Positions 45,143 to 61,885 of a DNA stretch of 64,000 nucleotides are shown piece after piece. The DNA is taken from NCBI GenBank assembly GCA_015709595.1, contig CP054178.1, positions 3,415,205 through 3,479,204 on the forward strand, written 5' to 3'. Made by a program: the position numbers and the translations under genes. How positions within the stretch are numbered: the stretch's first letter is position 1; each line of letters starts with the position of its first letter. The DNA is from Phycisphaeraceae bacterium (GTDB lineage Bacteria > Planctomycetota > Phycisphaerae > Phycisphaerales > SM1A02). The notes beneath the pieces are model-generated. The model searched no databases. It was not told the DNA's origin and worked only from the letters and a program-made list of their open reading frames with translations.

Positions 45143-46555
45143 TCAGGCCTTCACAATGTGTCCGCAATCGCCACGGACGTCCTTCAAGGCATTGCGGGCG
45201 TCCACGATCAGCCGGGCGTTGTCGGCGATGAACTGCCAGTCGTACGCCTTGTGGTGCGTGGACACGACCACCATGTCGTAACCGGCCAGGGACTCCCTGG
45301 TCAACGGCACGCTCTTCATCTCGAAGTTGTACTTGCGCATCTTGTGCGTCTCGGTCACGTGTGGATCGTTGAAGTCCACCCAGGCGCCGAGATCCTTGAA
45401 CTTCTCGATGAGCTCGAATGACGGGCTCTCCCGCACGTCATCCACGTCCGGCTTGTAGGCCAGACCCAGGATCAGCACGCGCGAGCCCTTGACGGGCTTG
45501 CCCCGGTCGTTGAGCGCCCGCACGGCACGCTCCACCACGTACTCGGGCATGGCGTGGTTGACCTCGCCCGCCAGTTCGATGAATCGTGTGGGCATGCCCA
45601 CCTCGCGGGCCTTCCACGTCAGGTAGAACGGGTCGATGGGGATGCAGTGCCCGCCCAGACCCGGACCCGGATAGAACGGCTGGAAACCGAACGGCTTGGT
45701 GGCGGCGGCGTCGATCACCTCCCAGATGTCGATGTCCATCGCCGTCAGCACGCGTTTGAGTTCGTTCACCAGCGCGATATTGACGGCGCGGTAGATGTTC
45801 TCCAGCAGCTTGGCGGCTTCCGCCACTTCCGCCGTGGAAACGCGGATGACCTGCTTGATCGCCTTGGCGTACAGCGCGGTCGCCAGATCGCCGGAGATGG
45901 GGTCGATGCCGCCCACGAGCTTGGGGATCGTCTGGGTAGAGTGATCCTTGCGGCCCGGATCCTCTCGCTCGGGCGAGAAGGCGAGGAAGTAATCCCGGCC
46001 GCATGTCAGCCCGCGCGCCTCGAAACGGGGAAGCAGAATCTCGCGCGTCGTGCGCGGGTACGTCGTGCTTTCCAGCGAGATCAACTGGCCCGGGCGCAGC
46101 GTGGCGGCGATGGCGTCGCCCGTCTTCTCGATGTAGCTCAGGTCCGGCTCAAGGTGTCGTCCCAGCGGCGTGGGCACGCAGATGATGACTGCGTCCGCCT
46201 CACCCAGCCGGGAAAAGTCACTGGTGGCTTCGAACCGTCCCTGCGCTCTGGTCGGCGCCATGTCCGACACCAAGGTCGCGCCGAGGTGCTTGAGGTAGCT
46301 CTCGCCCCGGTGCAGCATGTCGATCTTGCGCGGGTCGATGTCGAAGCCCAGCACCGGAAAGCCGGCGTCCCAGAAGGCACGCAACAGCGGAAGCCCCACG
46401 TAGCCAAGCCCGATCACGCCGATGCGAGCGGTGCGCCGTTCGATCGATTCGGCCAACCGATCCGCCGCGGCGGATGCGGATTGACCCGCCTGGCCGGCGA
46501 CGTTGCCTGCAGAACTCGCACGCCGCGGAGACCGCTCAACACTCAACCCTGACAT
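45143..46555 (-). CDS. nucleotide-sugar (probably UDP-GlcNAc-type) 6-dehydrogenase
   Basis: 470 residues from ATG 46555 (MSGLSVERSPRR), with GGGAG 8 bases upstream. After an Ala/Arg-rich 45-residue leader the NAD fold is clear (RIGVIGLGYVGLPLLRAF), followed by the UDP-sugar dehydrogenase domains and the catalytic Cys in GPGLGGHCIPIDPFYLTWKA. That last motif resembles WbpA/TviB-type UDP-N-acetylglucosamine dehydrogenases more than Ugd, but the distinction is not certain. Produces a UDP-uronate for glycan synthesis. Last gene of the locus, with its own upstream gap and a terminator. Confidence 0.88.
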   Translation of the reverse strand: MSGLSVERSPRRASSAGNVAGQAGQSASAAADRLAESIERRTARIGVIGLGYVGLPLLRAFWDAGFPVLGFDIDPRKIDMLHRGESYLKHLGATLVSDMAPTRAQGRFEATSDFSRLGEADAVIICVPTPLGRHLEPDLSYIEKTGDAIAATLRPGQLISLESTTYPRTTREILLPRFEARGLTCGRDYFLAFSPEREDPGRKDHSTQTIPKLVGGIDPISGDLATALYAKAIKQVIRVSTAEVAEAAKLLENIYRAVNIALVNELKRVLTAMDIDIWEVIDAAATKPFGFQPFYPGPGLGGHCIPIDPFYLTWKAREVGMPTRFIELAGEVNHAMPEYVVERAVRALNDRGKPVKGSRVLILGLAYKPDVDDVRESPSFELIEKFKDLGAWVDFNDPHVTETHKMRKYNFEMKSVPLTRESLAGYDMVVVSTHHKAYDWQFIADNARLIVDARNALKDVRGDCGHIVKA

Positions 46556-46736
46556 GCACGTCACTCCCTGGATACGAAGGTGGTGATCCGACGATTGGAC
46601 AGGCATCCACCAACCAAACGGAGCCGGATTTATCCGGACCTCCTGATCCGGCCCATGTTGCGGTATTCATCGACACTTCGCCGATCGTACGTCAGTGGCC
46701 TTGGTCGATCCCGTCCGCGGACACCACCCTGGCGAC

Positions 46737-46779
46737 AAAAAGGACGAGGGCCCGGATGACCATCATCCGAGCCCCGTCC
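46737..46779 (-). terminator. strong Rho-independent terminator downstream of the PEP-CTERM gene
   Basis: On the minus strand a long hairpin (GGACG, GGGC, CGGATG segments pairing with CATCCG, GCCC, CGTCC; one mismatch and one bulge) is followed directly by TTTTTG. It lies about 218 bases after the stop, giving an unusually long 3' UTR. Confidence 0.75.
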
Positions 46780-46903: not shown

Positions 46904-46932
46904 CAGCAGGATCCCGTAACGGGATCCTGCTG
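46904..46932 (-). terminator. perfect 13-bp hairpin just after the PEP-CTERM gene
   Basis: CAGCAGGATCCCG and CGGGATCCTGCTG pair perfectly round a 3-base loop, 64 bases after the stop. There is no T-run, so it may protect the mRNA 3' end or be a Rho-type or processing structure, with the main terminator 125 bases further on. Confidence 0.5.
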
Positions 46933-46996
46933 CGTCGATGCTGAGTCGATTGGTCGGGCAGGAACTTCTGCCCAGGCGAAGCGAGAATGCGGTTGG

Positions 46997-47752
46997 TCAG
47001 ATGCGCCGCAGACGACGGCGGACCACCACCGCACCCGCCAGGCCGGCCAGGCCCATCAGCGCGGCGGGCGGAACCGGCACGATGACGATCTGATCCTGAC
47101 CACTGTCGCTCATGGCGGCAGCCAGCAGATACTCTCGCTCCAAGTCATCGCTGAGCCAGGCGTTCTTCACGTCGAGCAGCATGGCGTTGGCCATGTTCTT
47201 GGCGTTGGTCGTCATGTTGCTGGCCTTGAACCAGCCGGAGGTCAGCGACAGGTTGCCGGCGAGAACGGCGGACAACTGTTCGTTCACGATCTCCCACAGC
47301 GCGATCTGGAAGGCCGAGGCGCGATCCTTGTCAGACGACGCGTCGTTGACGAGGTGGAAATACTTGGCGTACAGGTGGTGAACCATGGCCGCCTTCTCAG
47401 GCCCCATCGGTCCAGGACCGTTCGGCGGGCTGTTGGGGGCATCCTTGAGCGACACCACGTTGAACGTCTTGGTGGCGGCGAACTGGAAGATGTCCGTGCA
47501 GAACGTGATCATCGGACCAAGCTTGATGCCGTTCTGCGTGGTGGCAGTCACGTTCCACTTCAGCTGCCCGGTGAACACGTTCACGCTGGTGCTGTAGTTG
47601 CCATCGTTGTACTGGATATTGGTGTTCGTATTGCCGCGTCCCGCACCGACGAATGACATGGTGATCGTCCCGGCCCATGACGCACTCGCCATAAGAGCCG
47701 ATGACGCAGCGATAGCTGAAAGCACAATCCCTCGGAAAGTACGACGTCTCAC
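46997..47752 (-). CDS. PEP-CTERM-like exosortase substrate with probable Cys-Gln thioester domain
   Basis: 251 residues from GTG 47752, with GGGAG about 7 bases upstream; an in-frame start at 47842 lacks one. Signal peptide to about residue 28 (IAASSALMASASWAG). C-terminal sorting signal about 224-251: IVPVPPAALMGLAGLAGAVVVRRRLRR, i.e. VPxP in place of PEP, a helix and an Arg cluster. The middle has FCTDIFQF (Cys85, the only Cys) and SAFQIALWEIVNE (Gln149), matching the [F/Y]C ... xQxALW pattern of thioester domains that form an internal Cys-Gln bond in surface adhesins. Upstream is 161 bp of relatively AT-rich DNA; downstream several hairpins. Likely exported and processed by the exosortase encoded at 59.7-60.6 kb. 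Confidence 0.8.
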   Translation of the reverse strand: MRRRTFRGIVLSAIAASSALMASASWAGTITMSFVGAGRGNTNTNIQYNDGNYSTSVNVFTGQLKWNVTATTQNGIKLGPMITFCTDIFQFAATKTFNVVSLKDAPNSPPNGPGPMGPEKAAMVHHLYAKYFHLVNDASSDKDRASAFQIALWEIVNEQLSAVLAGNLSLTSGWFKASNMTTNAKNMANAMLLDVKNAWLSDDLEREYLLAAAMSDSGQDQIVIVPVPPAALMGLAGLAGAVVVRRRLRRI

Positions 47753-47913: not shown

Positions 47914-48942
47914 TCACGCGGTGGTCTTGGCTGGTCTGACCAGATTGGTGGCGTTGAACGCCCGATTCTTCAGGGGCCTCCACCACATTTCGTGGTCGCG
48001 ATACCACTCGATCGTCTGAGCGAGGGCCTGGGGCCAGGCGCTTCGAGTGGGTCGCCACCCCAGCTGCGTACGGATCTTGCCTGCGTCGATGGCGTATCGC
48101 CGATCGTGCCCAGGCCGATCGGCCACCGGTTGGATCATCTCCCTGCCCATTCCCAGCAGGTGCAGCAGTGTGTGCGTCAACTCCAGGTTGCTCCGTTCGT
48201 TGTCGCCGCCGATGTTGTACACCTCGCCCGGCGTGCCGGATTCCAGCACCACCAGCAGGGCCTCGCAGTGATCCTCCACATGCAGCCAGTCGCGGACATT
48301 CAGCCCGTCGCCATAGAGCGGCACCTTTCGACCATCAAACAGGTTGGTGACGAAGAGCGGGATGACCTTCTCGGGAAACTGATACGGGCCGAAGTTGTTG
48401 GAGCAGCGCGTCACCATGGCCGGAAAGCCGAACGTGTGGTGATACGCCAGCACCAGGTGGTCGCTGGCCGCCTTCGATGCCGCGTACGGACTGTTGGGCG
48501 AGATCGGCGAGGACTCGGTGAATCGCTTCGACGGGTCATCCAGCGGCAGACTGCCGTACACCTCGTCTGTGCTGACATGCAGGAACCTTTTCACTTGCCC
48601 CGAATCACGGCAGGCGTCCAGCAGCACCTGCGTCCCGACGACGTTGGTCGAGATAAAGGGACCGCTGTCGTGGATCGAACGGTCCACGTGACTCTCGGCG
48701 GCAAAGTGAACCACTGCGTCGCACCCGTGGAGCGCCTCGAGCACCTGATCCCGGCGACGGATGTCCCCGTGAACAAAGCGATAGGCCGCGTCTTCTGAGA
48801 GGTCAGCCAGGTTCGCCAGGTTGCCGGCATAGGTGAGCAGGTCGAGGTTCACAACCTGCCACGCAGGCCGCACCCGACGCACGAAGCGAATGAAGTTGCT
48901 GCCGATGAAGCCAGCGCCGCCGGTCACGAGAATCCTGTGCAT
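47914..48942 (-). CDS. rfbB: dTDP-glucose 4,6-dehydratase
   Basis: 342 residues from ATG 48942 (MHRILVTGGAGFIGSNFIRF), with AAGGA 8 bases upstream; a TTG at 48969 would overlap rfbD by 4 bases. NAD-binding GGAGFIG, active-site Tyr/Lys in YAASKAASD, FAAESHVDRSI and FLHVSTDEVYG identify RfbB/RmlB. Second step of dTDP-rhamnose synthesis. In an rfbA-rfbD-rfbB run. Confidence 0.95.
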   Translation of the reverse strand: MHRILVTGGAGFIGSNFIRFVRRVRPAWQVVNLDLLTYAGNLANLADLSEDAAYRFVHGDIRRRDQVLEALHGCDAVVHFAAESHVDRSIHDSGPFISTNVVGTQVLLDACRDSGQVKRFLHVSTDEVYGSLPLDDPSKRFTESSPISPNSPYAASKAASDHLVLAYHHTFGFPAMVTRCSNNFGPYQFPEKVIPLFVTNLFDGRKVPLYGDGLNVRDWLHVEDHCEALLVVLESGTPGEVYNIGGDNERSNLELTHTLLHLLGMGREMIQPVADRPGHDRRYAIDAGKIRTQLGWRPTRSAWPQALAQTIEWYRDHEMWWRPLKNRAFNATNLVRPAKTTA

Positions 48943-48965
48943 GGGGCGTCCTTGCGATCGCTCTG

Positions 48966-49871
48966 TCAATGGACCTGCGCTGCGGTTGGCAAGTGGTTTG
49001 CCGCACCGGGGAGTATCTCACGCAGACAGGCGCGCAGGGCGTCGAGCCAGTGTCGCGGCTGCCCGATCAGATTCGTCGTGCCGGAAAGATCGAGAACGCT
49101 GAAGCGGGGTCGCCTGGCTGGTCGCGGAAACTCGTTCGTCTCGATCGGCAGAACGCGACAGGCAAGCCCCGCCTCATCCACGATCGCCTCGGCGAACTCG
49201 AACCACGAGCAGTCGCCGCTGTTCGTCGCGTGAAACGTGCCCTCGGCGCCGCGATGGATCAGGCGGCAGGTCATCTCCGCCAGATCGGCGGCCAGGGTAG
49301 GCCGCCCGCGCTGATCCATCACCACCCGCAGCTCGGGCTTGGCGGCGGCATGCTGCAGAATGGTCTGCACGAAGTTCCGCCCATGCGGGGCGTACAGCCA
49401 GCTGGTCCGGATGATGAGATGCCGGCAGCCGCTGCGCCGAATCGCCACTTCGCCCGCCAGTTTGGTGGCGCCATACCAGTTGACCGGGTCCGTCGGATCC
49501 GTGACGGCGTAGGGGCGCCGCCCCTCGCCATTGAACACGTAGTCGGTCGAGTAGTGAACCAGCAATGCGCCCTGCTCAACGGCAATCCGCGCCAGAATCC
49601 CGGGCCCATCCCCATTGACGCGGGCGGCCTGATCACGGTCGCTCTCCGCCCCGTCCACGTTGGTGTACGCCGTGGCGTTGATGATGATGGCCGGCTTGAG
49701 CGGCACGAGGGCGGCGCGCACGGCGGCCTCGTCGGTCACGTCCAGCGCCGTGGAGTCCGCGAACGCCACCATCCGGTTCGCCAACTCGGGGCAGGCCGAA
49801 ATCAACTCCTGCCCCAGCATGCCGGATGAACCCAGGAGAACAACCGTACCCGGTGATTCCGATGCTCGCAT
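48966..49871 (-). CDS. rfbD: dTDP-4-dehydrorhamnose reductase
   Basis: 301 residues. LLGSSGMLGQELI, NATAYTNVDGAESDRDQAARVN, STDYVFNGEG and YGATKLAGE are classic RmlD motifs (SDR-type, Tyr/Lys in YGATK). Final step of dTDP-L-rhamnose synthesis. Twenty-five bases follow the rfbA stop. Confidence 0.94.
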   Translation of the reverse strand: MRASESPGTVVLLGSSGMLGQELISACPELANRMVAFADSTALDVTDEAAVRAALVPLKPAIIINATAYTNVDGAESDRDQAARVNGDGPGILARIAVEQGALLVHYSTDYVFNGEGRRPYAVTDPTDPVNWYGATKLAGEVAIRRSGCRHLIIRTSWLYAPHGRNFVQTILQHAAAKPELRVVMDQRGRPTLAADLAEMTCRLIHRGAEGTFHATNSGDCSWFEFAEAIVDEAGLACRVLPIETNEFPRPARRPRFSVLDLSGTTNLIGQPRHWLDALRACLREILPGAANHLPTAAQVH

Positions 49872-49896: not shown

Positions 49897-50673
49897 CTAC
49901 ACGGCTTCCGTCACCTTCGGCCGCGCGGCACGCCGCTCGGCCCGATCGACGCGGTTGGCCCCGGTCTGCGTGACCAGATTGCTCGCCCGGTGCAGCGACT
50001 CGAACGTTCCCGCATCGGTCCACCATCCCTCCAGCACGTCGTAGGTCAGGTCGCCGCGCTTCAGGTAGGCGTTGTTCACATCCGTGATCTCCAGTTCGCC
50101 GCGGGCGCTGGGCTTGAGATCGCGGGCGAAGTCGAACACGTCGTTGTCGTACATGTAAATGCCAATGACGGCGAGGTTGGAAGGGGGATCCTTGGGCTTC
50201 TCGATGATCTCGACGATCCGGTCGTCCTCGAACCGCGCCACGCCGAACCGATGCGGATCGGGAACCTCCTTCAGCAGCAGTTTGGCGCCGGTGCGCTGCG
50301 TGAAGAAGTCCGCCACCGCGTGGCGGATGTCGCGCTCGATGATGTTGTCGCCCAGAACCACGCAGATCTTCTCGCCGTCGGCGAAGTCCTCGGCCAGTTT
50401 GAGCGCATCGGCGATGCCGCCCTCCCCTTCCTGATAGGTGTACTGAAGTTCCCGGATGCCCAGCGCCTTGCCATTGCCCAGCAGCTTGAGGAAGTCGCCC
50501 GCGTGCTCACCGCCGGTGACGATGAGAATCTGGTCGATGCCCGCGTTGAGCAGGCAGTCGATGGGGTAGTAGATCATCGGCCGGTCGTACACCGGCAGAA
50601 GGTGCTTGTTGGTGACTCGGGTGAGCGGCAGCAGCCGCGTGCCAAGCCCGCCTGCAAGAATCACGCCTTTCAT
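49897..50673 (-). CDS. rfbA: glucose-1-phosphate thymidylyltransferase
   Basis: 258 residues with the full nucleotidyltransferase signature MKGVILAGGLGTRLLPLT, KHLLPVYDRPMIYYP, LGDNIIERD and KPKDPPSNLAVIGIYMYD. First step of dTDP-sugar synthesis. GGAG about 8 bases upstream. The C-terminus is somewhat short relative to the 290-residue enzyme, typical of the short RffH-like class. Confidence 0.93.
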   Translation of the reverse strand: MKGVILAGGLGTRLLPLTRVTNKHLLPVYDRPMIYYPIDCLLNAGIDQILIVTGGEHAGDFLKLLGNGKALGIRELQYTYQEGEGGIADALKLAEDFADGEKICVVLGDNIIERDIRHAVADFFTQRTGAKLLLKEVPDPHRFGVARFEDDRIVEIIEKPKDPPSNLAVIGIYMYDNDVFDFARDLKPSARGELEITDVNNAYLKRGDLTYDVLEGWWTDAGTFESLHRASNLVTQTGANRVDRAERRAARPKVTEAV

Positions 50674-50736: not shown

Positions 50737-53700
50737 TCAGGCCGCGAGCTGGCTCCAGGCAACAGACGGCGGCGCGGACGCCTGCAACGAGGCGCGAATC
50801 TCGTCCAGGGCGTCGGCCACCTCGACCGGCACGATCAGGGCATGCCGCAGCAGCGACTCCACGCGCGACACGATGCTCCTGGCTCCGGTTGCGTCGCCCC
50901 GGCGAATCAGAATGCGCGCCCTGGTGAGCAGCAGCGCCGGGTTTTCCGCCTGCCGGGCCAGCGCCAGGTCGATCGTCTGCAGCGAATCATCAAGCCGCCC
51001 GGCGTGCATGAGCACCAGGGCGTGCGTGTCCAGGAAGTCCGGGACGTCGCCGTGCAGACCGACCAGCCGCTCCGAGAGCGGGAGCGCTTCATCCGCACGG
51101 GACACGGCGGTGACCAGCAGCATGGCCAGGTTGTTCAGGGCGATGGGATCATTCGGATCGCGCCGCAGCAGCTCTCGATACTGCGACACCGCCTCCTCCG
51201 TGCGCCCTTCCGCGGCGGTGATGATCGCAATCGTCCGAAGTGCTTCCGGCGTGGGCTCGGACGAGCCGACCGCCGACTGAACGGCCTCGCGAGCCCGCGT
51301 GAAGCACATGGCGGCGCGAGCCGCGCCCTGCGGCTGACGGGCGATTCGCTGTCCCACCGTGGCCCAGGCGAGCGCCAGGTGGAGCCGTCGCTCGAAGGAG
51401 ACGGCCTGCTCCGCCGCGCGGTTGAGCGCGGCGGACGCCAGATCGCCGCTGAGCGTCTGGGCATTGCTCAGCCAGGTCGAGAAGACTCCCTCGTCGCCGC
51501 TCATGTCCTCGACGACTTCGCGGTAGGCCTCGTCGATACGGCCGGCAAGCATGAGCGTCACGACCCATCGCTCAAATCCGCGGGGGTCGCGGCGGCGCTC
51601 GGCCCGGAACCGCTCCACCATGGGCGCCAGCACTTCGTACGCGCGGTTGAAGTTCTTCAGATCCAGCGCGATCGAAGCCAGAACGATGCTGGCCTCGTAG
51701 GGATCAGCCAGCGAGCGGCGCCTCCAGGCCTCGGCATTCGTCAGGGCCCGCTCCAGTTCGCCACGGTCGATCAGGATTTCGGTCATCCACTGCGCCGGTT
51801 CGGGATCACCGGGCATCCGCAGCATGGCCTGCTCAGCCACACGTCGGGCGCCGTCGGTGTCGCCGGCGATCCGGTGCAGCATGAACGCCAGCCGCGCCGC
51901 CGGAAGGAACGTCGGGTGCTTCGACGCCAGTTCGCTGGCGGCGCGAAGATCCTCAACCTTCCTTGACATGCTCCCGTCGCTGGAGACGACGCGGCTGAAC
52001 AGTCGCACGGTCTCGACCAGCGCCGTGTTGTCCCCGCGAAGCTGCTCGAAGGTGCTGAGCGCCTCGCGCCGGGCCGATTCATCGCCGCCCAGGGCGGCGG
52101 CGGCGATGAGCAGACGCAGATCCTCCTCCTCGGGATGGCGCTGCAATGCCGCACTGGCGATGCGGATCGCCTCATCGGCCTTCCCCTGCATCATGGCATG
52201 ACGCGCCAGCCAGACGCTGGTGGTTACGTTGTCGGGATCAGATTCCGCGGCGCGCAGCAGGAACTGCTGGGCGGTCGCATGGTCCCCCCGCTGCACGTGA
52301 TAGGCGCCCCACAGCATCAGGCGCAGCGACTCGCGCTCCAGCGCCGCGTTGTTCAGGATCGACTCCGCCCTCGACCAGTTGCCTCGGGCGACCTGATGCT
52401 GCACCGCCAGAAGCACGGCCATGGGTGAGCACGGCGTCTCCCGCACCAGTTCGTCGAGCAGCGCCCAGGCCTCGTCGTACCGTCCGGCCCGCAGGCGCCA
52501 GGCCGCCAGCGTCAGGCGGTCGGTCTGTTCTCCTGACGCTCGCGCCACCACGTCAAATCGAGCGACCGCCGCTTCAAAGTCACCCTGTCGGGCGAACAGC
52601 GAAGCCGCGGCACGACTGACTTCCTGGTCGGCGCCTCGATAGGTCTCGAACTGTCGGAGGTATCGCTCCGCCGAGGAGAACTCGCCCAGTTCCTGCAGCA
52701 GGGCGATCAGCTGGGGATAGAGCGTCGTCTGCTGAGGCCATCGCTCCACCGCCTGACGCAGCAGCCCCGCCGCCATGCGGCGATTGCCCGGTCCGATGGC
52801 CAGATGCAATCTTGCGAGCGTGGTCAGCACGGCGACAGAATCTCCCCCGCCGCGCTCGCGGAGGCCGTCCACGTCGGCGAGCGCCGCCGCCAGGGCCTGC
52901 TGGTTGTCGGCGTCGAATCGCAGCGTGTACTGCGCCCGACCGAGAATCAGACGACTGGAGCCGGGCGGAGCGATCGACTCGAGCCGCGACAGGGCTCGAC
53001 CGAGCGTCTCGGCATCACGCCATGTCGAGTTGAGCGACAGAAGCATGTCCAGTGCGTCGCTCGGCAACGACGGATCGTTCAAAAGGTCGCTCAGCGCCTC
53101 GCGGACGGAAGGGAGATCGAACTCCTCCAGGTAGCGAACGCGGTTGAGCCGCCACTTCATCGGCGGCGAAGACGCCTGCAGATCGACCACCCGGTCCAGC
53201 TCGGCCAGACCCGCCTCGATGCGGCCCGATCGTCCCAGCGCCCGGGCCCTCGCCCAGGCAAGGTCCATCGCCGCGTCATCCGACCCGGCGGCCTCGGCGA
53301 GCGCCGCGGGAATCTCGACCCGGGCATCCACCGCCAGATGCGCCAGCTGGGCCTTCACGCGATCAGGCACGTTGCCTTGCGAGGCGGCCTGCGCCAGCAA
53401 GGCGCGCAGGCCAGCGGCGTCGCCGCGCTGCCACATCGCCTGGGCCAGCAACGGGAGAACATCCGCCGTACCGCCGGTTCCCTCGTAGAGCGACTGAAGG
53501 AACGTCAGTGCATCGGGCCACGCCGGCTGACGACCAAGATCGGGAAGCGCAATGCCCGCCTGCTCGACAGCCAGCCAGATTCTTCCGAGACTCAGATACG
53601 GACCGATCACACTGGGCCGAGTGCTGCGCGTCATGTCGTGGACCGTGATGAACGCCTCATCCAGGCGCCCCATGCGCAGCAGCGATTCGGCCAATCCGAC

Positions 53701-55035
53701 CCCCGGCACGATCCACATCCGGCGGGTTTCCTCGTACGCCCGACGAAACGCAACCATGGCCGCCGGTGTCTCACCCAGGGCGGCCAGGGCCTCACCCTGC
53801 AGATGGAACAGCACGGCGACATCCACACCAGCCGCCATTGTCTTCGTGGCGCCTTGCAGACGCCCCAAGGCGCTGTCGTACGCTCGCAGGGCCTCGCGCC
53901 AACGCCCGGTGTTGGCCTCCCGACGCGCTTCGATGGCGTCGCCCCAGGCATTCGTCAGGTCGCGCTCATCCGAAGGCATGGCGGCCGCGGCTTCCTCAAG
54001 CCGCGCCAGAAGCTGACTCACCTGAGCGTCGTCCTGACGCACCGTCGCCAGCAAGGCCTGCCATCGCAGGATGGCGGGCGTGGGCTCCGTCTTCATGGCG
54101 GCCAGCGCCGAATCCAGGGTCGTCTGCGCGAGATCGGGGCGTCCATGAACCCACTCGCGCCGAACGGCAACCTCGACCGGCCACCACTCGTCAGGGAACC
54201 GACCACGGGTCGAGGTCAGGAACTCGTCCGCGGTGTCCCGCTCTCCGATCTGCTCGAGAGACCAGAGCAGGTATTCAAAGACATCTCGCTCGACGCCGAG
54301 CCGCGCGGCTTCCAGAAGGTCGGCTCGTCCCGACTGTGACTGCTGAAACCGATAGCGCAGAATCCCGCGCAGCACCAGCCAGCGGCCGTCCGCCGCCTTC
54401 TGTTCGGCCATGAGAGCGTCGCAATAGGCGCTCAGCGCCTGGAAGTCCGCCCCCGATCGTTCGAGCACGCCCAACTCGACTTCACGGTACTCGTAGCGGT
54501 CCGGATCGATGCGCGTCAACTGGGATGCACGCAACTTCGCGGGCTCAAACGCGCCCGACGCCATGTGCCCCGCGATGAGGGCCATCAGCGCACCCTCGTG
54601 CGCCGGATCGATCGCCACCAGGCGCTCGGCGATGTCCATCATGTCCACGCGACGACCGATCTGGCGGAAGATTCCCAGCAGTCCCTCGAGCGCCGTCCGA
54701 TTGTCCGTGTCACGTTCCAGCACCGAACGATACACCGCCGTGGAGGCGCGCACGTGGCGGCCATCGGGTTCAGGAACCCGCAGCCGGGCATCCGCCAGCA
54801 GCAGCGCCGCCTCGATGTCATCGGGATAGCGCCCATAGTACTGGCCGAGCGCCCGGATGGCCTCGCGGTATCGTCCTGCGGCGTGATGCTCCACGCCATG
54901 CTCACGCGCCTGCTGAATGCGTCGCTCGGTCAGATACGCGCGAACGCCCAGCGCGGCTCCACCAAGCGCCGCCAGAGCGACGACGATGGCCGTGACCATC
55001 AGCAGCCGGCGCTTTCCTCGTTTCGTCAGTTTCAC
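50737..55035 (-). CDS. membrane-anchored giant TPR protein, PrsT-like (1432 aa)
   Basis: Starts at GTG 55035, with GGAGG 8 bases upstream. Positive N-terminus and one membrane helix about 11-32 (RLLMVTAIVVALAALGGAALGV) anchor it; the rest is TPR-like helical pairs throughout, from HHAAGRYREAIRALGQYYGRYPDD to LNNLAMLLVTAVSRADEALPLSERL near the C-terminus. In exosortase-type exopolysaccharide loci a large TPR protein (PrsT, about 900 residues) is a standard member, and its place here between the sugar transferase and rfbA fits. It is longer than usual. Probably a periplasmic scaffold for export or assembly. Confidence 0.82.
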   Translation of the reverse strand: MKLTKRGKRRLLMVTAIVVALAALGGAALGVRAYLTERRIQQAREHGVEHHAAGRYREAIRALGQYYGRYPDDIEAALLLADARLRVPEPDGRHVRASTAVYRSVLERDTDNRTALEGLLGIFRQIGRRVDMMDIAERLVAIDPAHEGALMALIAGHMASGAFEPAKLRASQLTRIDPDRYEYREVELGVLERSGADFQALSAYCDALMAEQKAADGRWLVLRGILRYRFQQSQSGRADLLEAARLGVERDVFEYLLWSLEQIGERDTADEFLTSTRGRFPDEWWPVEVAVRREWVHGRPDLAQTTLDSALAAMKTEPTPAILRWQALLATVRQDDAQVSQLLARLEEAAAAMPSDERDLTNAWGDAIEARREANTGRWREALRAYDSALGRLQGATKTMAAGVDVAVLFHLQGEALAALGETPAAMVAFRRAYEETRRMWIVPGVGLAESLLRMGRLDEAFITVHDMTRSTRPSVIGPYLSLGRIWLAVEQAGIALPDLGRQPAWPDALTFLQSLYEGTGGTADVLPLLAQAMWQRGDAAGLRALLAQAASQGNVPDRVKAQLAHLAVDARVEIPAALAEAAGSDDAAMDLAWARARALGRSGRIEAGLAELDRVVDLQASSPPMKWRLNRVRYLEEFDLPSVREALSDLLNDPSLPSDALDMLLSLNSTWRDAETLGRALSRLESIAPPGSSRLILGRAQYTLRFDADNQQALAAALADVDGLRERGGGDSVAVLTTLARLHLAIGPGNRRMAAGLLRQAVERWPQQTTLYPQLIALLQELGEFSSAERYLRQFETYRGADQEVSRAAASLFARQGDFEAAVARFDVVARASGEQTDRLTLAAWRLRAGRYDEAWALLDELVRETPCSPMAVLLAVQHQVARGNWSRAESILNNAALERESLRLMLWGAYHVQRGDHATAQQFLLRAAESDPDNVTTSVWLARHAMMQGKADEAIRIASAALQRHPEEEDLRLLIAAAALGGDESARREALSTFEQLRGDNTALVETVRLFSRVVSSDGSMSRKVEDLRAASELASKHPTFLPAARLAFMLHRIAGDTDGARRVAEQAMLRMPGDPEPAQWMTEILIDRGELERALTNAEAWRRRSLADPYEASIVLASIALDLKNFNRAYEVLAPMVERFRAERRRDPRGFERWVVTLMLAGRIDEAYREVVEDMSGDEGVFSTWLSNAQTLSGDLASAALNRAAEQAVSFERRLHLALAWATVGQRIARQPQGAARAAMCFTRAREAVQSAVGSSEPTPEALRTIAIITAAEGRTEEAVSQYRELLRRDPNDPIALNNLAMLLVTAVSRADEALPLSERLVGLHGDVPDFLDTHALVLMHAGRLDDSLQTIDLALARQAENPALLLTRARILIRRGDATGARSIVSRVESLLRHALIVPVEVADALDEIRASLQASAPPSVAWSQLAA

Positions 55036-55059: not shown

Positions 55060-56751
55060 TCACCCCGATGCGGGATGCGTCGGATCGCCAGCCGAGCCGG
55101 CAGATGCAACCAGCTGTTCCGACGACGGACGGCTCGCCTCCGGCGCGTGGCGCTGCGAGAAGAGCCGCTGGATGGTCTTGAGCAGAATGCGGCAGTCGAG
55201 CAGGAACCCGGCGTTCCGCACGTACTCGGTGTCGAATCGAATCCATTCCTGAAAGTCCAGGCCCGGGGCTCGCGTACGCTCCACCTGCCAGAGACCGGTA
55301 ATCCCGGGCCGCACGCTGAGACGCGTCTCGCGCCACGGGGGGCAGTACTGATTCTCACTGTCCGGGCTGGGGCGGGGACCGACGATGCTCATGTCGCCGA
55401 TCAGGACGTTCCAGAACTGCGGCAGTTCATCGAGGTGGTATCGCCGCATGAAGCGTCCAATGCGCGTGACGCGCGGATCATCGACAATGTAGAACTGCGG
55501 ACCATCACACCGGTTGAGCGACTGAAGCTCCCGTGTCATGCGATCGGCGTCGCGACGCATGGTGCGGAATTTCCAGCAGCGGAACAGCCGTCCCCCCCGC
55601 GACTGGCGCAGATGGCCGTAGAAGATCGGACGCCCGTCGCTGATCACCACCGCCAGCGCCAGTCCGAGCAGCAGCGGCAGGACGGCCAGAAGCACCGCTG
55701 TGCTGACCGCGATGTCGAACAGTCGCTTCGAGATGAGAAACAACGGCGACAACGCCGCGATTGGTTCGTTCGTCGAACGGCCCACGTCGTCCGATTCGTC
55801 ACGATCATCCGACTCGCTCTGACGATTGCCCGGCTCCACCTCTCCGATGGGCCGTACACGGACATATCCGGTCGAAACAGCGGAAGCGTCTCCGGTGCTC
55901 GTGACTCGTTCACTCACGTTGACAGAGGCGCGCGGCTGATGCTCGGCGACCGGCGCATCGGGCTCATAGTCCGGTCCCACCAGGAGAACCGATGAATCCG
56001 CCCGATGACCCGCGCCAAGCCACACCGGTCCGATCACGAGAGACTCCGGCCCGAGACGGCACTCCTTCAGCGCCCAGACCTGAGGCGCAATTTCCTGGAT
56101 GCCCTCGATGGAAGAATCGGGATCAGTCCAGTTGCGGACCAGGCGATGCAGGTAGCGACCGGCCGAATCAGGACTGGCGGCATCCAGAAGCAGACCGGCA
56201 CATCGCCAATGAACGACGCGGTAGTACGGCAGCGAGCGACGGATGCGCATCCACGCCGCACGTCGATTGGATTCCCTGCACCAGACCTCCGCGTGCTCCC
56301 GACTCCGCGTCAGAATCAGGCGGTGCGAATCAGGCCGCGCGGTTCGATACAGCCGCTGGATGCGCTCGATGCGCGGAGCGATCGAGGACTGGAGATTGGC
56401 ATCCGTCGGGGGAGCGGAGCCCGCCAGTTGAATCCGTTCGGCGTAATGGTCGTCACCCGGCGACGACAGCCGAAGGCGCATGACCGCGGCGCCGTTCCAC
56501 GTCATGCGCTCCGTCACTGTCGGAAGATCGAACTCAGCCAGGCAATCGGGCTCGACCAGCATGTAGAGCTCCGCGTCGCGGTCGATGAGCGCGTCCCGAC
56601 CGCACTCGATGACCTGAACGCCGCGGGATCGCCAGTACGCCTCGTGGAGGGCGCGTGCATCGAGCCCCCAGATCATCGGGCCGCGATGCATGGTCGTTTC
56701 CCGATCGGATGCACGCGGCTTCATCGGCTCGATCTGCTGCGGCATGATCAT
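55060..56751 (-). CDS. polyprenyl-phosphate sugar transferase with an unusual N-terminal half
   Basis: 563 residues. The C-terminal domain about 340-535 is a standard initiating sugar transferase: helix [20 protein letters not shown], then [63 protein letters not shown] and [10 protein letters not shown]. It would attach the first sugar phosphate to undecaprenyl phosphate. The N-terminal about 330 residues have no CoA-binding fold and no four-helix membrane bundle; they hold a soluble domain with [15 protein letters not shown] (about 240-255), resembling a left-handed beta-helix turn of NDP-sugar pyrophosphorylases. ATG overlaps the Wzz/kinase stop by 4 bases. Confidence 0.88.
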
Positions 56752-58973
56752 CGTTCGCCCCGATCCGCCGCGTCATGGGTCAGGAGCCGCATCATGGGCG
56801 AAGGCGTCGCCGGGGGCGGTGCGCCGCCGGCTTCGCCTTCAGGCGCCGGCGCGGACCGCGCGGATACCCGTGAGGCGGAGGTGTAGCGTCGGCACTCGCT
56901 CAGGTCGGCGCAGTTGAGCACCACGCCGATGAGCTGCGCCCCGACCGTGCCCAGTTCGGTCGTGCATTCATCCAGACGACGGCGCGGTCTTCCTCGCCGC
57001 AGGGTGAGCACCACGCCGTCCGCCGCGGCCACGATGGGCAACGCTTCGACGCTTCCCAGCAGTGGGCCGGTATCCAGGATGACCACGTCGAATCGGGCCC
57101 GCAGCCGCTCCACCAGTCGCTTCATGTCGGCGCGGGTCACGTGTTCGGGGCCGAATGAACGGTCGCGGCCGACGCCGATCACGCTCAGACGCGGGTTTCC
57201 GGCGACGGGGTGGGCCTCGCCGTTGACGGTGGTAGCGCCGAGAAGCTCCTTGACGCCGCGCACGTCAAGCTGACCCGCCTGGGCCGAGAGCGCCTGTCCG
57301 ATGAAGTCGCAGTCCACCAGGCACGTTGACAGGCCGGAACTCGCGTAGGACCAGCCCAGGGCGAAGGCCAGCGAGGTCTTGCCGTCTCCCTGGAACGGAC
57401 TGGTGACCGCCAGGACCAGCGGGCCTTCATGCGGTCGTCCCATCTCAATGCGATTCCGCAATCGGTGAATGCAGGCGGACGCCAGTTCGCGGGTCTCGAC
57501 GGCGTCCTCGCCGCGGCTGAGATCGGGCAGGACGCCGATGCAATCCTGCGGTCCCGAACTGGAGGCCAGTTGCGAGGCCGCGAAGGCGCGCCGATCCACG
57601 TGGCCGACGAGCAGGAACAATCCCATCGGGAGTCCGAAGCCGAAGATGAAGCCGGCCGCCGCCAGTTGATTCCGCTTTGATCGCTGCGGCTTGTCCGGAA
57701 GAATCGGCATGCGGACGCTGGTGAAGCCCTGCTTGAGGGCGCGTTCGTTGTATCGAAGGTTCTCAAGATTCTTCTCGAGATCCACCAGTCCTCGCTCCAG
57801 GGCCTGAATCTCCTGATCGATCACCTCACGGCGACGACGCTCCTTGGCGATTTCCTCGATGTCGCTCCAGACGGCGCTTCGAGCCGTCAACAGGTCGCCT
57901 GTCCGCTCAGGTGGAACGGTGGTGACCCGCCCCACGTGAACCGGCTGCGCCGTCGGAGGTGCGGCGGCCCACTTGCGACGGGCTTCCGTTTCCATTTCGG
58001 CGGCTCGTGCCTTGAGCGCCTCCACCGCGGCCCGCTGCAGACGCACGGGACGGTGATTCTCGCTGTACTGCGTCAGCATCTGCGTCAGCAGGTTCTCCTC
58101 CTGCACGAGGGACTGACGAACCTTGGCGAAGTCGGGATCGATCCGCGTCAGATCGGCCAAGGTCGGCTCGGGGGGAGCCGGCGGCAGGGCCGGCTCGCTC
58201 GGCTGACCTTGAGCGGCAGCCGCGGCGGCGTCAGACGCCCGGCTGTCCCCCGTGGCGACCATCTGACCCGCCGCGATGAGCGCCAGCGTGTGAGATGTGT
58301 AGAGCTCCCAGTTCAGGCGGTGCAGGTCCGTCAGCACGTCATCCGAATACTGGGCGAAGCGGCTCTGCGAATCGAGACGTTCGGCGCGGCGCGTCCGCAA
58401 CCTGGACCGCTGCGTCTCAATGATCTGCACCAGTTCATCCCGGCGGGCCTGGTACTTGGCCTCGGGGGCGGCTTCACGCTCGTATTCTTCGAGAATCGCC
58501 CTGACCGCCGCGAACGCCACGCCGGCCTGATCCGCCTCCACCGAAACCGAGATGTACGTGCTGCGCCTGTCACGCCGCACACTGGTTGCATCGCGGAAGT
58601 TGGACAGGGTGGGGAACGCGGCGTCAACGCCGGCATTCCTGGCTGTGCTGTTGCGCATCGCCCGGTCAAGCAGCAGGTCCATTCGAAGCATCTGCGCCTG
58701 CGATTCGACAAAGGAATCATACATGGGCATCGTCTGACGGTCTTCGCCGATCACCGGTTCGATGAACGGCGCCACCTCGACGTGCCCGGTGGCGATGTAT
58801 CGCGTCGGCGCCAGAAAGAAGCCCAGACCGCCGACGATCAATCCCAGCGTGATCGACAATGGCAGGGCGTAGCGCCATCGGCCGCGCAGGCGGTCGTGCA
58901 GGAAGTGCCAGATCGACGGCTGTCGGTCCGCCGGAGGCGAGTGGCCTCGAAGATCAAGTTCGTGATCAACCAT
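56748..58973 (-). CDS. Wzz/GumC-type chain-length protein fused to BY-kinase-like ATPase
   Basis: 741 residues. Membrane helix about 36-54, a periplasmic coiled-coil region with polysaccharide co-polymerase character, second helix about 438-457, then a cytoplasmic kinase-like domain: Walker A SPFQGDGKT (525-533), Walker A' CLVDCDF (551-557), Walker B VVILDTG (629-635). Controls chain length and export of the polysaccharide. The C-terminal tail after 697 has one Tyr only, not the usual tyrosine cluster, and is Pro/Ala-rich. Overlaps the EpsI stop by 8 bases. Confidence 0.92.
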   Translation of the reverse strand: MVDHELDLRGHSPPADRQPSIWHFLHDRLRGRWRYALPLSITLGLIVGGLGFFLAPTRYIATGHVEVAPFIEPVIGEDRQTMPMYDSFVESQAQMLRMDLLLDRAMRNSTARNAGVDAAFPTLSNFRDATSVRRDRRSTYISVSVEADQAGVAFAAVRAILEEYEREAAPEAKYQARRDELVQIIETQRSRLRTRRAERLDSQSRFAQYSDDVLTDLHRLNWELYTSHTLALIAAGQMVATGDSRASDAAAAAAQGQPSEPALPPAPPEPTLADLTRIDPDFAKVRQSLVQEENLLTQMLTQYSENHRPVRLQRAAVEALKARAAEMETEARRKWAAAPPTAQPVHVGRVTTVPPERTGDLLTARSAVWSDIEEIAKERRRREVIDQEIQALERGLVDLEKNLENLRYNERALKQGFTSVRMPILPDKPQRSKRNQLAAAGFIFGFGLPMGLFLLVGHVDRRAFAASQLASSSGPQDCIGVLPDLSRGEDAVETRELASACIHRLRNRIEMGRPHEGPLVLAVTSPFQGDGKTSLAFALGWSYASSGLSTCLVDCDFIGQALSAQAGQLDVRGVKELLGATTVNGEAHPVAGNPRLSVIGVGRDRSFGPEHVTRADMKRLVERLRARFDVVILDTGPLLGSVEALPIVAAADGVVLTLRRGRPRRRLDECTTELGTVGAQLIGVVLNCADLSECRRYTSASRVSARSAPAPEGEAGGAPPPATPSPMMRLLTHDAADRGER

Positions 58974-59718
58974 GACCGGTTTCCTCTCCCTTCCGCATCA
59001 GCACGCCGAACAGCTCCGGCATGCCATCAACCATCTCCGAAAGAATCTTCAATCCCTCGACTGGATCAAGCGAGGCGCCCCCCACGAGCTGCACCTGCGC
59101 GATGCCGTAGTTTGATGCGCCGCGCCACCTCGCCATGGAGCGCAAGCCGTCCATGTCCGGCGTGATCATCCCGTTGGGCATGATGAAGAAGTTGAGCACG
59201 CGGATCGTCTGAACATCGCCGAACACCCCGCGCTGATCAAACTCATAGAACATGACCGACGCCTCGCCGATCGACGAATTCCGCCATGCGATGACGCGCG
59301 TCGAGGCGTCGTTGGTGCGCCACCCGTGCGCCGGGTAGCAGATCGGGGGGTAGTGCCCCTGCATGTCGCGAAGGTTGGTGCAGTGCACCACGGTGAAGGT
59401 CACGTCCATGGGCGCGCGCCCGGAGTCGGCGTCGTGGCTGGTCTCGCGATAGCGACGGCTGAGGATCGCCGAGGGCTTGAGGATTCTCCACGCCGACGGC
59501 GGCACGGTCACGCCTCGACCCGTCCATCGCCCCACCACCCACGGCGCCTGCTCGATCGCCTTCACGATGCGCTCCGTGCGCTCGAGCATGGCCGGCGTCA
59601 ACGGCTCAACCGTGGGAAGCACGGCGGGCGCGGCGATCAGCAGAACCACGGCGAGCATCGGCGCGAACTCGTTCACGAGCCGCAACAATCGTCGCCAGCC
59701 GGTCACGGGACGGTTCAT
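58966..59718 (-). CDS. exosortase-associated EpsI-like protein
   Basis: 250 residues. N-terminal helix about 18-36, then the EpsI motif with His and Cys: GHYPPICYPAHGW (His122, Cys127). EpsI-like proteins accompany exosortase in exopolysaccharide loci, often fused to it; here separate. Its ATG overlaps the exosortase stop by 4 bases. Exact function unknown; the His/Cys pair suggests an enzyme or thiol-dependent partner. Confidence 0.85.
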   Translation of the reverse strand: MNRPVTGWRRLLRLVNEFAPMLAVVLLIAAPAVLPTVEPLTPAMLERTERIVKAIEQAPWVVGRWTGRGVTVPPSAWRILKPSAILSRRYRETSHDADSGRAPMDVTFTVVHCTNLRDMQGHYPPICYPAHGWRTNDASTRVIAWRNSSIGEASVMFYEFDQRGVFGDVQTIRVLNFFIMPNGMITPDMDGLRSMARWRGASNYGIAQVQLVGGASLDPVEGLKILSEMVDGMPELFGVLMRKGEETGHG

Positions 59719-60605
59719 TGCGACAACCTCCAGTGCGACACCGGCAGTTCAAGCCATCGCATGAAGCGGAGCAGCATCACCAGCGCCCCGAGGGCCACCG
59801 GCAGCATCACCCACCCGGCCAGATCATGAAACTGCTCCGCGAACGTCGCCGATCCATACCCGTAGACGACCGCCGTGGGCACCAGCCGGATCACGTTGCA
59901 GACCAGCGCCAGCAGCGGACTGACCGCCAGCAGAAGCAGCTTCGTGTTCCGTTTCAGCGGCACGGAGAAGACCAGGGCGTAGACAACCAGCGTCAGCGCA
60001 AACACCATGCGCATGCCGTTGCACGCCTCGCCCACCGCCACCTGCTGGCCCTGCACGATGATGACGTTGCCGGTCTTCTCGGCGGCGATGCCCACGATGC
60101 CCAGCACCTGATGCGTGATCGACGCGGCGATGTACTGCAGTGGAATGGTGATCTGCTGCCGAAGAACGCCTGGCACGGGGATGAAGAACACGAAGACCAG
60201 CAGCACCGGCATGAACTGCCGCAGCAGCAGCGGACCGGTCGTGCTCAGCAGTGCTCCCAGGATCAGCACCAGCGCGCCGCCATGCTGCAGCACCATGGTG
60301 TCGGTCTCATACCCGAACCACACGCTTGCCCACCCTGCCGCGATGAGGAGCGGCCCCAGCATGGACGGTTGATGCCGCAGGAACGGCAGACGATCACGAC
60401 GCAGCCACAGAAGCCATCCGGCGATAAAGGGCACGAGCAGCACGTGGCTCTGCTCGGAATCCCCCAGTCCAATCTGAATGATGCTGGCGATCTCCTGCCG
60501 AACCGCCCATAGAGCCAGTCCGACAATCAGCGCCATCAATGCAAAGTCTCGCGCCGTCCAGGCGCGCCCGTGCTGCCACGGAATGCGGCGAACCGGTTCG
60601 CTCAC
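59715..60605 (-). CDS. exosortase (PEP-CTERM processing transpeptidase-like)
   Basis: 296 residues from GTG 60605, which overlaps the preceding stop by 4 bases; the open frame upstream to 61181 shadows that gene. Seven to eight membrane helices. Catalytic residues by family: Cys195 in GEACNGMRM, Arg240 in CNVIRLVPT and His260 in FHDLAGW. Exosortases recognise PEP-CTERM signals, cut them and pass the protein to the cell surface or matrix. The gene is followed by EpsI. Confidence 0.95.
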   Translation of the reverse strand: MSEPVRRIPWQHGRAWTARDFALMALIVGLALWAVRQEIASIIQIGLGDSEQSHVLLVPFIAGWLLWLRRDRLPFLRHQPSMLGPLLIAAGWASVWFGYETDTMVLQHGGALVLILGALLSTTGPLLLRQFMPVLLVFVFFIPVPGVLRQQITIPLQYIAASITHQVLGIVGIAAEKTGNVIIVQGQQVAVGEACNGMRMVFALTLVVYALVFSVPLKRNTKLLLLAVSPLLALVCNVIRLVPTAVVYGYGSATFAEQFHDLAGWVMLPVALGALVMLLRFMRWLELPVSHWRLSQ

Positions 60606-61540
60606 GCGGCCAACTCCTGACTGGAGACCGGTGTCGGACGCTCCCGGCGTGATCGACGCCCGTTGGAGAGGGACGGCGCCGTCAGAATCCTGTCGGCCGC
60701 CCGCTCGCCGGGCTCGACCACCGCCGCGCCGGTGACAAGACACCCGTTGAGCACCGCCGCCGCCCCCACGCGTGCGCCACGCAGGACGACGGTGTCCTTC
60801 AGGATCACACCGATGTCGATCTCGGCGCCGTCCTCCACCACGCACGCTCCCAGCTCGCGCCACGGTCGATCCTCGCGGCGGTCGTCCACGCGGCCCTGCC
60901 TGGACCACGCCGATACCGCGCGAAGATAGCTGTCGAGATCGCGCAGCCGGATCAGTTCTTCCGCCACGATCGCGGCGCGAACGTCGACGCCGCGGCGGAT
61001 CAGCCGCGGAATCAACTGCTCCTTCAGGTCGCAATAGCCCACGTCGGGCGCCTCGCGCAGCGCCTCCATGCCGCAGGCGAAGACACCGGCCGGCGCGAGA
61101 CCCGAAGTCGCTCCGACCACCACCCACGTTGACCCGGTCCGAGTCTCGAGCGCCTGCTTCAATGACGCGGGCGGCAGGCAACCGGCTTCCACCACCATGA
61201 TGGTGTCATCGTCCTCGAGCCGTGGATTGAGCAGGTCCCGCACCACGCCGGCGGAACCACGCCAGTCTCGAGGATCACGGACCACCTCGATCGACCTGAC
61301 CCACGGAGCGCGAGCCGCCGCCTCTCGCGCCAGTTCGCGCAACGCGGGAATCTCCTGGTCCAGATTGGTCGCCACGATCAGGTCAATCGGATGCCCCACG
61401 GACTTCAGCGCCTTCAGCCAGGCGTCAAAGAGAGCGCACCCGTCCCCGAGCGGCAGCGACGCGACCGGCCGACCGATCGCGGATTGAAGCGGCGAGGGGC
61501 GCATCGCCCCAGTCAGCATGATGACCTTGACATGACGCAT
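60602..61540 (-). CDS. NDP-sugar pyrophosphorylase-like protein, signature loop missing
   Basis: 312 residues from ATG 61540; no clear ribosome site. Nucleotidyltransferase-like order: VIMLTGAMRPSPLQSAIGRPV at the N-terminus where GGxGTR normally lies, then a Rossmann-like core (LIVATNLDQEIPALRE, IMVVEAGCLPPASLKQA) and a C-terminal hexapeptide repeat (GACVVEDGAEIDIGVILKD, VVLRGARVGAAAVLNGCLV). No GGxGTR loop and no usual KP motif, so catalysis is doubtful. Translationally coupled to the exosortase gene. Confidence 0.75.
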   Translation of the reverse strand: MRHVKVIMLTGAMRPSPLQSAIGRPVASLPLGDGCALFDAWLKALKSVGHPIDLIVATNLDQEIPALRELAREAAARAPWVRSIEVVRDPRDWRGSAGVVRDLLNPRLEDDDTIMVVEAGCLPPASLKQALETRTGSTWVVVGATSGLAPAGVFACGMEALREAPDVGYCDLKEQLIPRLIRRGVDVRAAIVAEELIRLRDLDSYLRAVSAWSRQGRVDDRREDRPWRELGACVVEDGAEIDIGVILKDTVVLRGARVGAAAVLNGCLVTGAAVVEPGERAADRILTAPSLSNGRRSRRERPTPVSSQELAA

Positions 61541-61885
61541 GAGAGGTTGTCTTGACTTTCGATCCGGAAACGAGTCTGTCCGAGAGGAAATGGCTTGAAT
61601 CGACTGAGCGATACGCGAGCATGAGGCCGCCGGGTCGCCTTTCCGACGCCTCATGCGGACCCAACTCGCCGGTACGGCCTGGAGAACCTGCTCAGGGCGC
61701 CGATTCCTCGGTCCGGTAATTCAGGCGCGTTCAACCGACGGTCTCATTTCATCCGCGACCAGTTCCTTGATGATCCCCTGAGCAGTTCTGTTTGGTTGAC
61801 GACAGAACGATCACAACCGACTCCCTCGATTGCTGCTGATCAATCACTCCTTCACTGCGGCGGTCGGCCCTGAGGTTCATGGGCA
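61541..61885 (-). other. 345-bp intergenic region, leader of the exosortase set
   Basis: No gene is credible. On the minus strand a hairpin with 9-bp perfect arms GCATGAGGC/GCCTCATGC at 61619-61656 lies 79 bases ahead of the downstream start; inside it GTCG/CGAC pairs. A 7-bp inverted repeat GTTCTGT/ACAGAAC lies at 61785-61808, after the cupin stop. No convincing promoter or T-run terminator seen. Confidence 0.5.

Follow-up and report, generated by a model that had tools for sequence, protein, structure and literature searches.

The 64,000-nucleotide stretch of DNA analysed here, hereafter the window, comes from contig CP054178.1 of a Phycisphaeraceae bacterium (assembly GCA_015709595.1, positions 3,415,205 to 3,479,204 of the forward strand). 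On its minus strand lies a gene whose product, the window protein, had been described from its letters as an exported PEP-CTERM-like protein with an internal Cys-Gln thioester. The analysis supports its assignment, from related sequences and a structural model, to the thioester domains (TEDs), with Cys85 and Gln219 as the predicted bond-forming pair. Coordinates are positions in the window throughout, and alignment counts refer to residues of the window protein. They were taken from A3, an alignment of 100 sequences, and from A4, which holds 74 sequences, leaves out degenerate copies and has a better aligned row for a Nitrosomonas bin. The gene and its features are as follows.

46997–47752, minus strand: coding sequence of the TED/PEP-CTERM-type protein, 251 amino acids, with a GTG start at 47752 and the stop at 46997–46999
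47672–47752, minus strand: signal peptide, residues 1–27, hydrophobic and ending in SASWA-G, read from the sequence; Ala27 is present in at least 90% of A3
47498–47500, minus strand: codon of Cys85 (FCTD, end of model strand 79–85), the predicted thioester cysteine, 99 of 100 in A3
47306–47308, minus strand: codon of Gln149 (AFQIALWE, helix 142–157), glutamine of a helical TQxxPhiW motif and probably not a bond former, judged from conservation, literature and model
47294–47296, minus strand: codon of Trp153, in the same helical motif as Gln149, 98 of 100 in A3
47096–47098, minus strand: codon of Gln219 (QDQIVIVP), the last-strand glutamine predicted to form the thioester, 98 of 100 in A3 and 74 of 74 in A4, also placed by structural mapping
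47000–47080, minus strand: exosortase-type sorting tail VPVPP-helix-RRRLRRI, residues 225–251, read from the sequence, with a model helix at 229–250 and a tail class shared in the genome

The GTG start is preceded by the purine-rich GGTAGGGAGAAG. The open reading frame is real and no chance product, as full-length homologues with E-values down to 8e-31 (about 40% identity) were found in many relatives by whole-genome search, with Cys85 and Gln149 conserved. Its translation bears out the preliminary description in several respects: the only cysteine is Cys85 in FCTDIF, Gln149 lies within SAFQIALWEI, and the signal peptide and VPVPP-helix-Arg tail are in place. The sequence features of a PEP-CTERM/exosortase substrate are present (signal peptide, proline-rich motif, C-terminal helix 229–250, arginine cluster), and the Pfam PEP-CTERM score is 11.2 bits, below the cut-off of 20.7. 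Searched singly against Pfam, NCBIfam and the PDB sequences, the window protein gave no significant match, and no relative turned up when genome contigs were scanned with it alone. Relatives emerged only with a whole-genome search and with profiles. A profile picked up 270 related stretches in the genomes of GTDB, and 80 loci were retained from these.

PF08341, the TED family, was matched by 38 of 56 homologues (best E-value 1.5e-5) and, scanned one by one at E ≤ 1, by 75 of 100 (best E-value 2.2e-6). The relative L105 scored 28.5 bits, above Pfam's curated cut-off. Apart from sorting tails, no other Pfam family appeared in more than three members of A3, and the NCBIfam matches of the family were mostly to sorting-tail models. 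We then compared an AlphaFold2 model of the window protein, built on A3 (pLDDT 89.4, pTM 0.83), with known structures. In the structural alignment, the top 12 rows were all TED crystal structures (BaTIE, EfmTIE86, SaTIE, several entries of Cpa, CpTIE, FNE and SfbI), with Z-scores of 8.5–12.2 and root-mean-square deviations of 3.2–4.2 over 150–172 residues, while the next row had a Z-score of 3.5. These rows are a re-examination of Foldseek candidates; Foldseek alone placed Cpa first with a weak E-value of 0.012, but there is no second fold family that is prominent among the matches. The model of a roseobacter homologue, L150, gave TED matches with Z-scores of 9.4–12.2, and CpTIE aligned at 2.6 Å over 139 residues. 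A profile search of PDB sequences with the alignments A1 and A2 found no TED, and a viral structure library held no match. The majority of family members match TED in Pfam and the structural list is headed by TEDs alone; as two agreeing lines, these support the window protein as a TED. The Pfam search and structure prediction that had been suggested at the outset thus recovered the TED family and the TED fold, the window protein itself staying below the Pfam cut-off.

According to the TED literature, these domains share three motifs, namely [YFL]C on a strand, a helical TQxxPhiW and a glutamine on the last strand, and the thioester joins the first to the third. The window protein has a counterpart of each: Cys85 in a [YFL]C-type motif at the end of its strand, AFQIALW in the helix, where F replaces T and the glutamine and tryptophan are kept in 99 and 98 of 100 sequences, and Gln219 followed by Asp220, each in 98 of 100. 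Because the bond in TEDs runs from the strand cysteine to the last-strand glutamine, Gln149 would by analogy be the glutamine of the helical motif and not the thioester partner. Three solved class I pairs are SfbI C109-Q261, CpTIE C138-Q267 and PnTIE C94-Q247, with spacings of 129–153 residues; in Cpa, the pair is Cys426-Gln575. Both of these Cpa residues are named in PMC4282584. Cys85 and Gln219 are 134 residues apart, which fits this range, and across the family the distance is 112–153 with a median of 131. The known thioester glutamine of CpTIE, Cpa and SfbI maps to residue 218–219 of the window protein model and to 185–186 of the L150 model, whose conserved glutamine is residue 186; residues were placed by numbering backwards from where the aligned ranges end, on the assumption of a gap-free last stretch, and not from coordinates. 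On these grounds, Cys85 is predicted to be the thioester cysteine, as proposed before, and Gln219 the acyl donor.

The bond originally proposed joined Cys85 to Gln149 of AFQIALWE, said to be spaced as in TEDs, a pairing that we regard as very improbable. Both residues are conserved in 99% of A3, and in solved TEDs the helical glutamine adjoins the cysteine; in class II structures, the helical glutamine and tryptophan lie beside the thioester and mostly form hydrogen bonds to the cysteine backbone (PMC6194298). However, the spacing of 64 residues does not suit a TED, solved thioesters use the last-strand glutamine, and Cpa needs neither the helical glutamine nor the helical tryptophan to form its thioester (PMC4450167). 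Moreover, three relatives (L034/L082, L047, L052) carry glycine or alanine instead of the helical glutamine and yet retain Cys85 and Gln219, and a tandem copy in L120 without Cys85 also lacks Gln219 but has Gln149; these natural variants are few. It had been suggested that lack of conservation of either Cys85 or Gln149 would speak against their bond; both proved conserved. A test of the conservation of Gln149 or its nearness to Cys85 is unable to expose a wrong bond, since Gln149 is conserved and the equivalent glutamine adjoins the cysteine in TEDs. Two other roles of Cys85 were also rejected: a disulfide, given that 53 of 100 homologues have one cysteine in the mature part, and lipidation, given its distance from the signal peptide.

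Several points weigh against a TED with a Cys85-Gln219 thioester. The window protein scores 14 bits for TED at a Pfam cut-off of 22, which reflects a limit of detection rather than the fold itself, and TED is absent from its hmmscan results; A3 showed no significant similarity to aligned class II TEDs encoded on plasmids, those of Bacillus among them (P 0.15). One relative (L055) lacks Cys85 while having Gln219. The motif QDQIV, of the form QDxPhiPhi, departs slightly from the published PhiQzetaPhiPhi in that one more residue precedes the two hydrophobic ones, and Gln221, present in 89 of 100 sequences, is a less likely alternative acyl donor. Given how diverse PEP-CTERM proteins are, the sub-threshold score might indicate an ordinary member of that group whose beta-rich fold is like that of TEDs by coincidence only, but the concurrence of the Pfam matches of most family members with the TED-only structural list makes this extremely unlikely. 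A TED fold whose thioester no longer serves as a harpoon, with non-covalent binding of polysaccharide or protein and the Cys-Gln pair as a structural element or relic, also appears unlikely, although to a lesser degree. Copies without the cysteine do exist, namely L055 and a degenerate copy in a tandem array (L120:7195-7842), in which Cys85 is replaced by alanine and Gln219 by asparagine with the helical glutamine kept, possibly a natural dead variant. Yet relics would often lose the reactive pair, which ranks with the best conserved positions in a family of only about 30% identity and is kept in 98 of 100 sequences; Cys85, Gln149 and Gln219 are jointly kept in 97 of 100. A purely structural role is improbable as well, as the thioester is no structural determinant in solved TEDs.

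The hosts of the homologues are nearly all Phycisphaerales or other Planctomycetota, and of 294 genomes sampled from the phylum, 13 contained a match, most of these genomes being from the same order. The few proteobacterial homologues come from Roseibacterium, Enterovibrio, a Nitrosomonas bin and a gammaproteobacterial bin, of which the bin assignments may be wrong. In the tree, the window protein pairs with the Phycisphaerales protein L101 (support 98/90), and deep forks are not resolved. Four-copy tandem arrays of the TED gene occur among the relatives, and tblastn searches of plasmids gave no match. We also observed a more divergent sister group (L058–L065 and L067, alignment A2) with FCVE, ALQxAIW and QD motifs and without a Pfam TED match; four genomes, all of the same genus, carry it at a distance of 8 kb from an exosortase.

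The neighbourhood of the TED gene is made up of the following features.

45143–46606, minus strand: UDP-sugar/GDP-mannose dehydrogenase
46747–46775, minus strand: terminator-like hairpin with a T-run, downstream of the TED gene; a consensus match only, with 0.9 expected by chance
47914–48969, minus strand: RmlB-like dTDP-glucose dehydratase
48966–49871, minus strand: RmlD-like reductase
49897–50673, minus strand: RmlA-like nucleotidyltransferase
50737–55035, minus strand: large TPR protein
55060–56751, minus strand: bacterial sugar transferase
56748–58973, minus strand: ParA/AAA-type protein, probably a tyrosine-kinase-like chain-length protein, judged from weak AAA_31 and CbiA matches
58966–59718, minus strand: EpsI/DUF3485 protein
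59715–61181, minus strand: exosortase (EpsH), PF09721 at E 5e-45, domain at residues 223–473

A perfect palindrome, CAGCAGGATCCCGTAACGGGATCCTGCTG, lies at 46905–46937 between the TED gene and the terminator-like hairpin. As had been proposed, the locus is a planctomycete exopolysaccharide locus: the exosortase, about 12 kb from the TED gene, and the exopolysaccharide genes form one gene cluster with it on one strand. An open reading frame without a Pfam match at 60602–61654 overlaps the long exosortase frame, and its homologues adjoin the exosortase in L114, L123, L125 and L128. Because of this overlap and the confinement of the domain to residues 223–473, the true start of the exosortase is probably near 60600. 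When the 80 loci were searched with the window genes, an exosortase was found 2–4 kb from the TED gene in the same four loci, and Rml genes adjoin the TED array in L097 and L120. In six genera of relatives, that of L123 counted, the TED gene lies at most 13 kb from an exosortase (rough binomial P ~1e-3). The genome encodes two exosortases and has two tail classes (seen genome-wide, with L071, L157, L158, L159 and window 47000–47080): about 25 VPAPG tails of the form [VI]PAPGALALLGLAG..RRRRR, and at least four of the VPxPP kind that end in RRRL or similar, the window protein's among them. Thus the VPVPP of the window protein is unlike the VPAPG of most other tails in the genome, and each exosortase may serve one tail class.

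All 251 residues of the window protein are taken up by signal, TED and tail, which leaves neither an isopeptide or ester stalk nor an LPXTG motif. In the model, only a three-residue turn (102–104) and no helix of four or more residues lies between strand 95–101 and helix 117–136, where class I TEDs have their helix alpha0. Similarly, about eight residues (201–208) connect helix 182–200 to strand 209–214, so that the class II beta-sandwich is lacking. By sequence and model, the domain would therefore be a minimal TED without either class-defining insert.

On the homology, fold, conservation, tail and locus described above, we consider it probable that the window protein is a minimal single-domain thioester adhesin, for which we infer bond formation, exosortase processing, the partner and a role in adhesion or the matrix. 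Its chemistry is derived from TEDs with solved structures. After Sec export, the protein would fold in the periplasm into the TED beta-barrel and three-helix fold, where Cys85 at the end of its strand and Gln219 at the start of the last strand would condense spontaneously with loss of ammonia to an internal thioester, with Gln149 and Trp153 on helix 2 holding the cysteine backbone. Cleavage of the VPVPP-helix-Arg tail would fall to an exosortase, for which the enzyme encoded 12 kb away in the cluster is the simplest candidate, and the domain would end up at the cell surface or within the layer of exopolysaccharide. An amine of a partner, either a protein lysine or an amino sugar, would then open the thioester and become bound to Gln219 by a permanent amide; given the locus, amino groups of the exopolysaccharide, matrix proteins and neighbouring cells are the likeliest partners. 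Gln219 is separated from the proline of the sorting motif by a median of seven residues across the family, so the partner would be attached almost at the anchor itself. By analogy, a role as adhesin or matrix cross-linker, as first proposed, is plausible. More speculatively, and with considerable doubt, exosortase substrates of Planctomycetota might carry a third, minimal class of TED that welds the cell surface to adjacent cells or to the exopolysaccharide of the cell itself. Since the bond-forming strand continues without a break into the sorting tail, exosortase cleavage could in itself switch the thioester to a reactive state, comparable to the proteolysis of complement C3.

On the question of how exosortase substrates keep exopolysaccharide at the cell, recent work on CrtB in Nostoc suggests covalent anchoring and names no chemistry (PMC12188702). 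A widespread TED on such substrates offers a specific, testable reaction. The founding survey placed TEDs in Gram-positives only; as a tiny stand-alone domain with a different sorting tail, the small TED of the window protein may act in a Gram-negative bacterium as a covalent glue for the surface of the cell or its slime layer.

Among known systems, the window protein shares with the class I TEDs (PF08341; Cpa, SfbI, CpTIE, PnTIE, FNE) the predicted beta-barrel and three-helix fold, [YF]C on a strand, the helical TQxxPhiW-like motif, the last-strand glutamine and the Cys-Gln spacing. It differs in the lack of alpha0 and of an isopeptide or ester stalk, in its planctomycete host and in an exosortase-type tail instead of LPXTG. 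The class II TEDs (BaTIE, SaTIE, EfmTIE86, TIE-pLS20) gave the best structural scores (Z 10.6–12.2) and likewise lack alpha0, whereas they insert about 75 residues as a beta-sandwich between helix 3 and the penultimate strand, where the window protein has its eight. PEP-CTERM substrates such as the floc proteins of Zoogloea and Aquincola have the same signal peptide, proline-rich motif, membrane helix and arginine cluster and an exosortase in an exopolysaccharide locus, but the window protein additionally carries a recognisable reactive domain. Complement C3/C4 and alpha-2-macroglobulin use an internal Cys-Gln thioester for covalent attachment, as predicted for the window protein. They do so with neighbouring residues in a CGEQ motif and in an unrelated fold, and this likeness would be one of convergent chemistry only.
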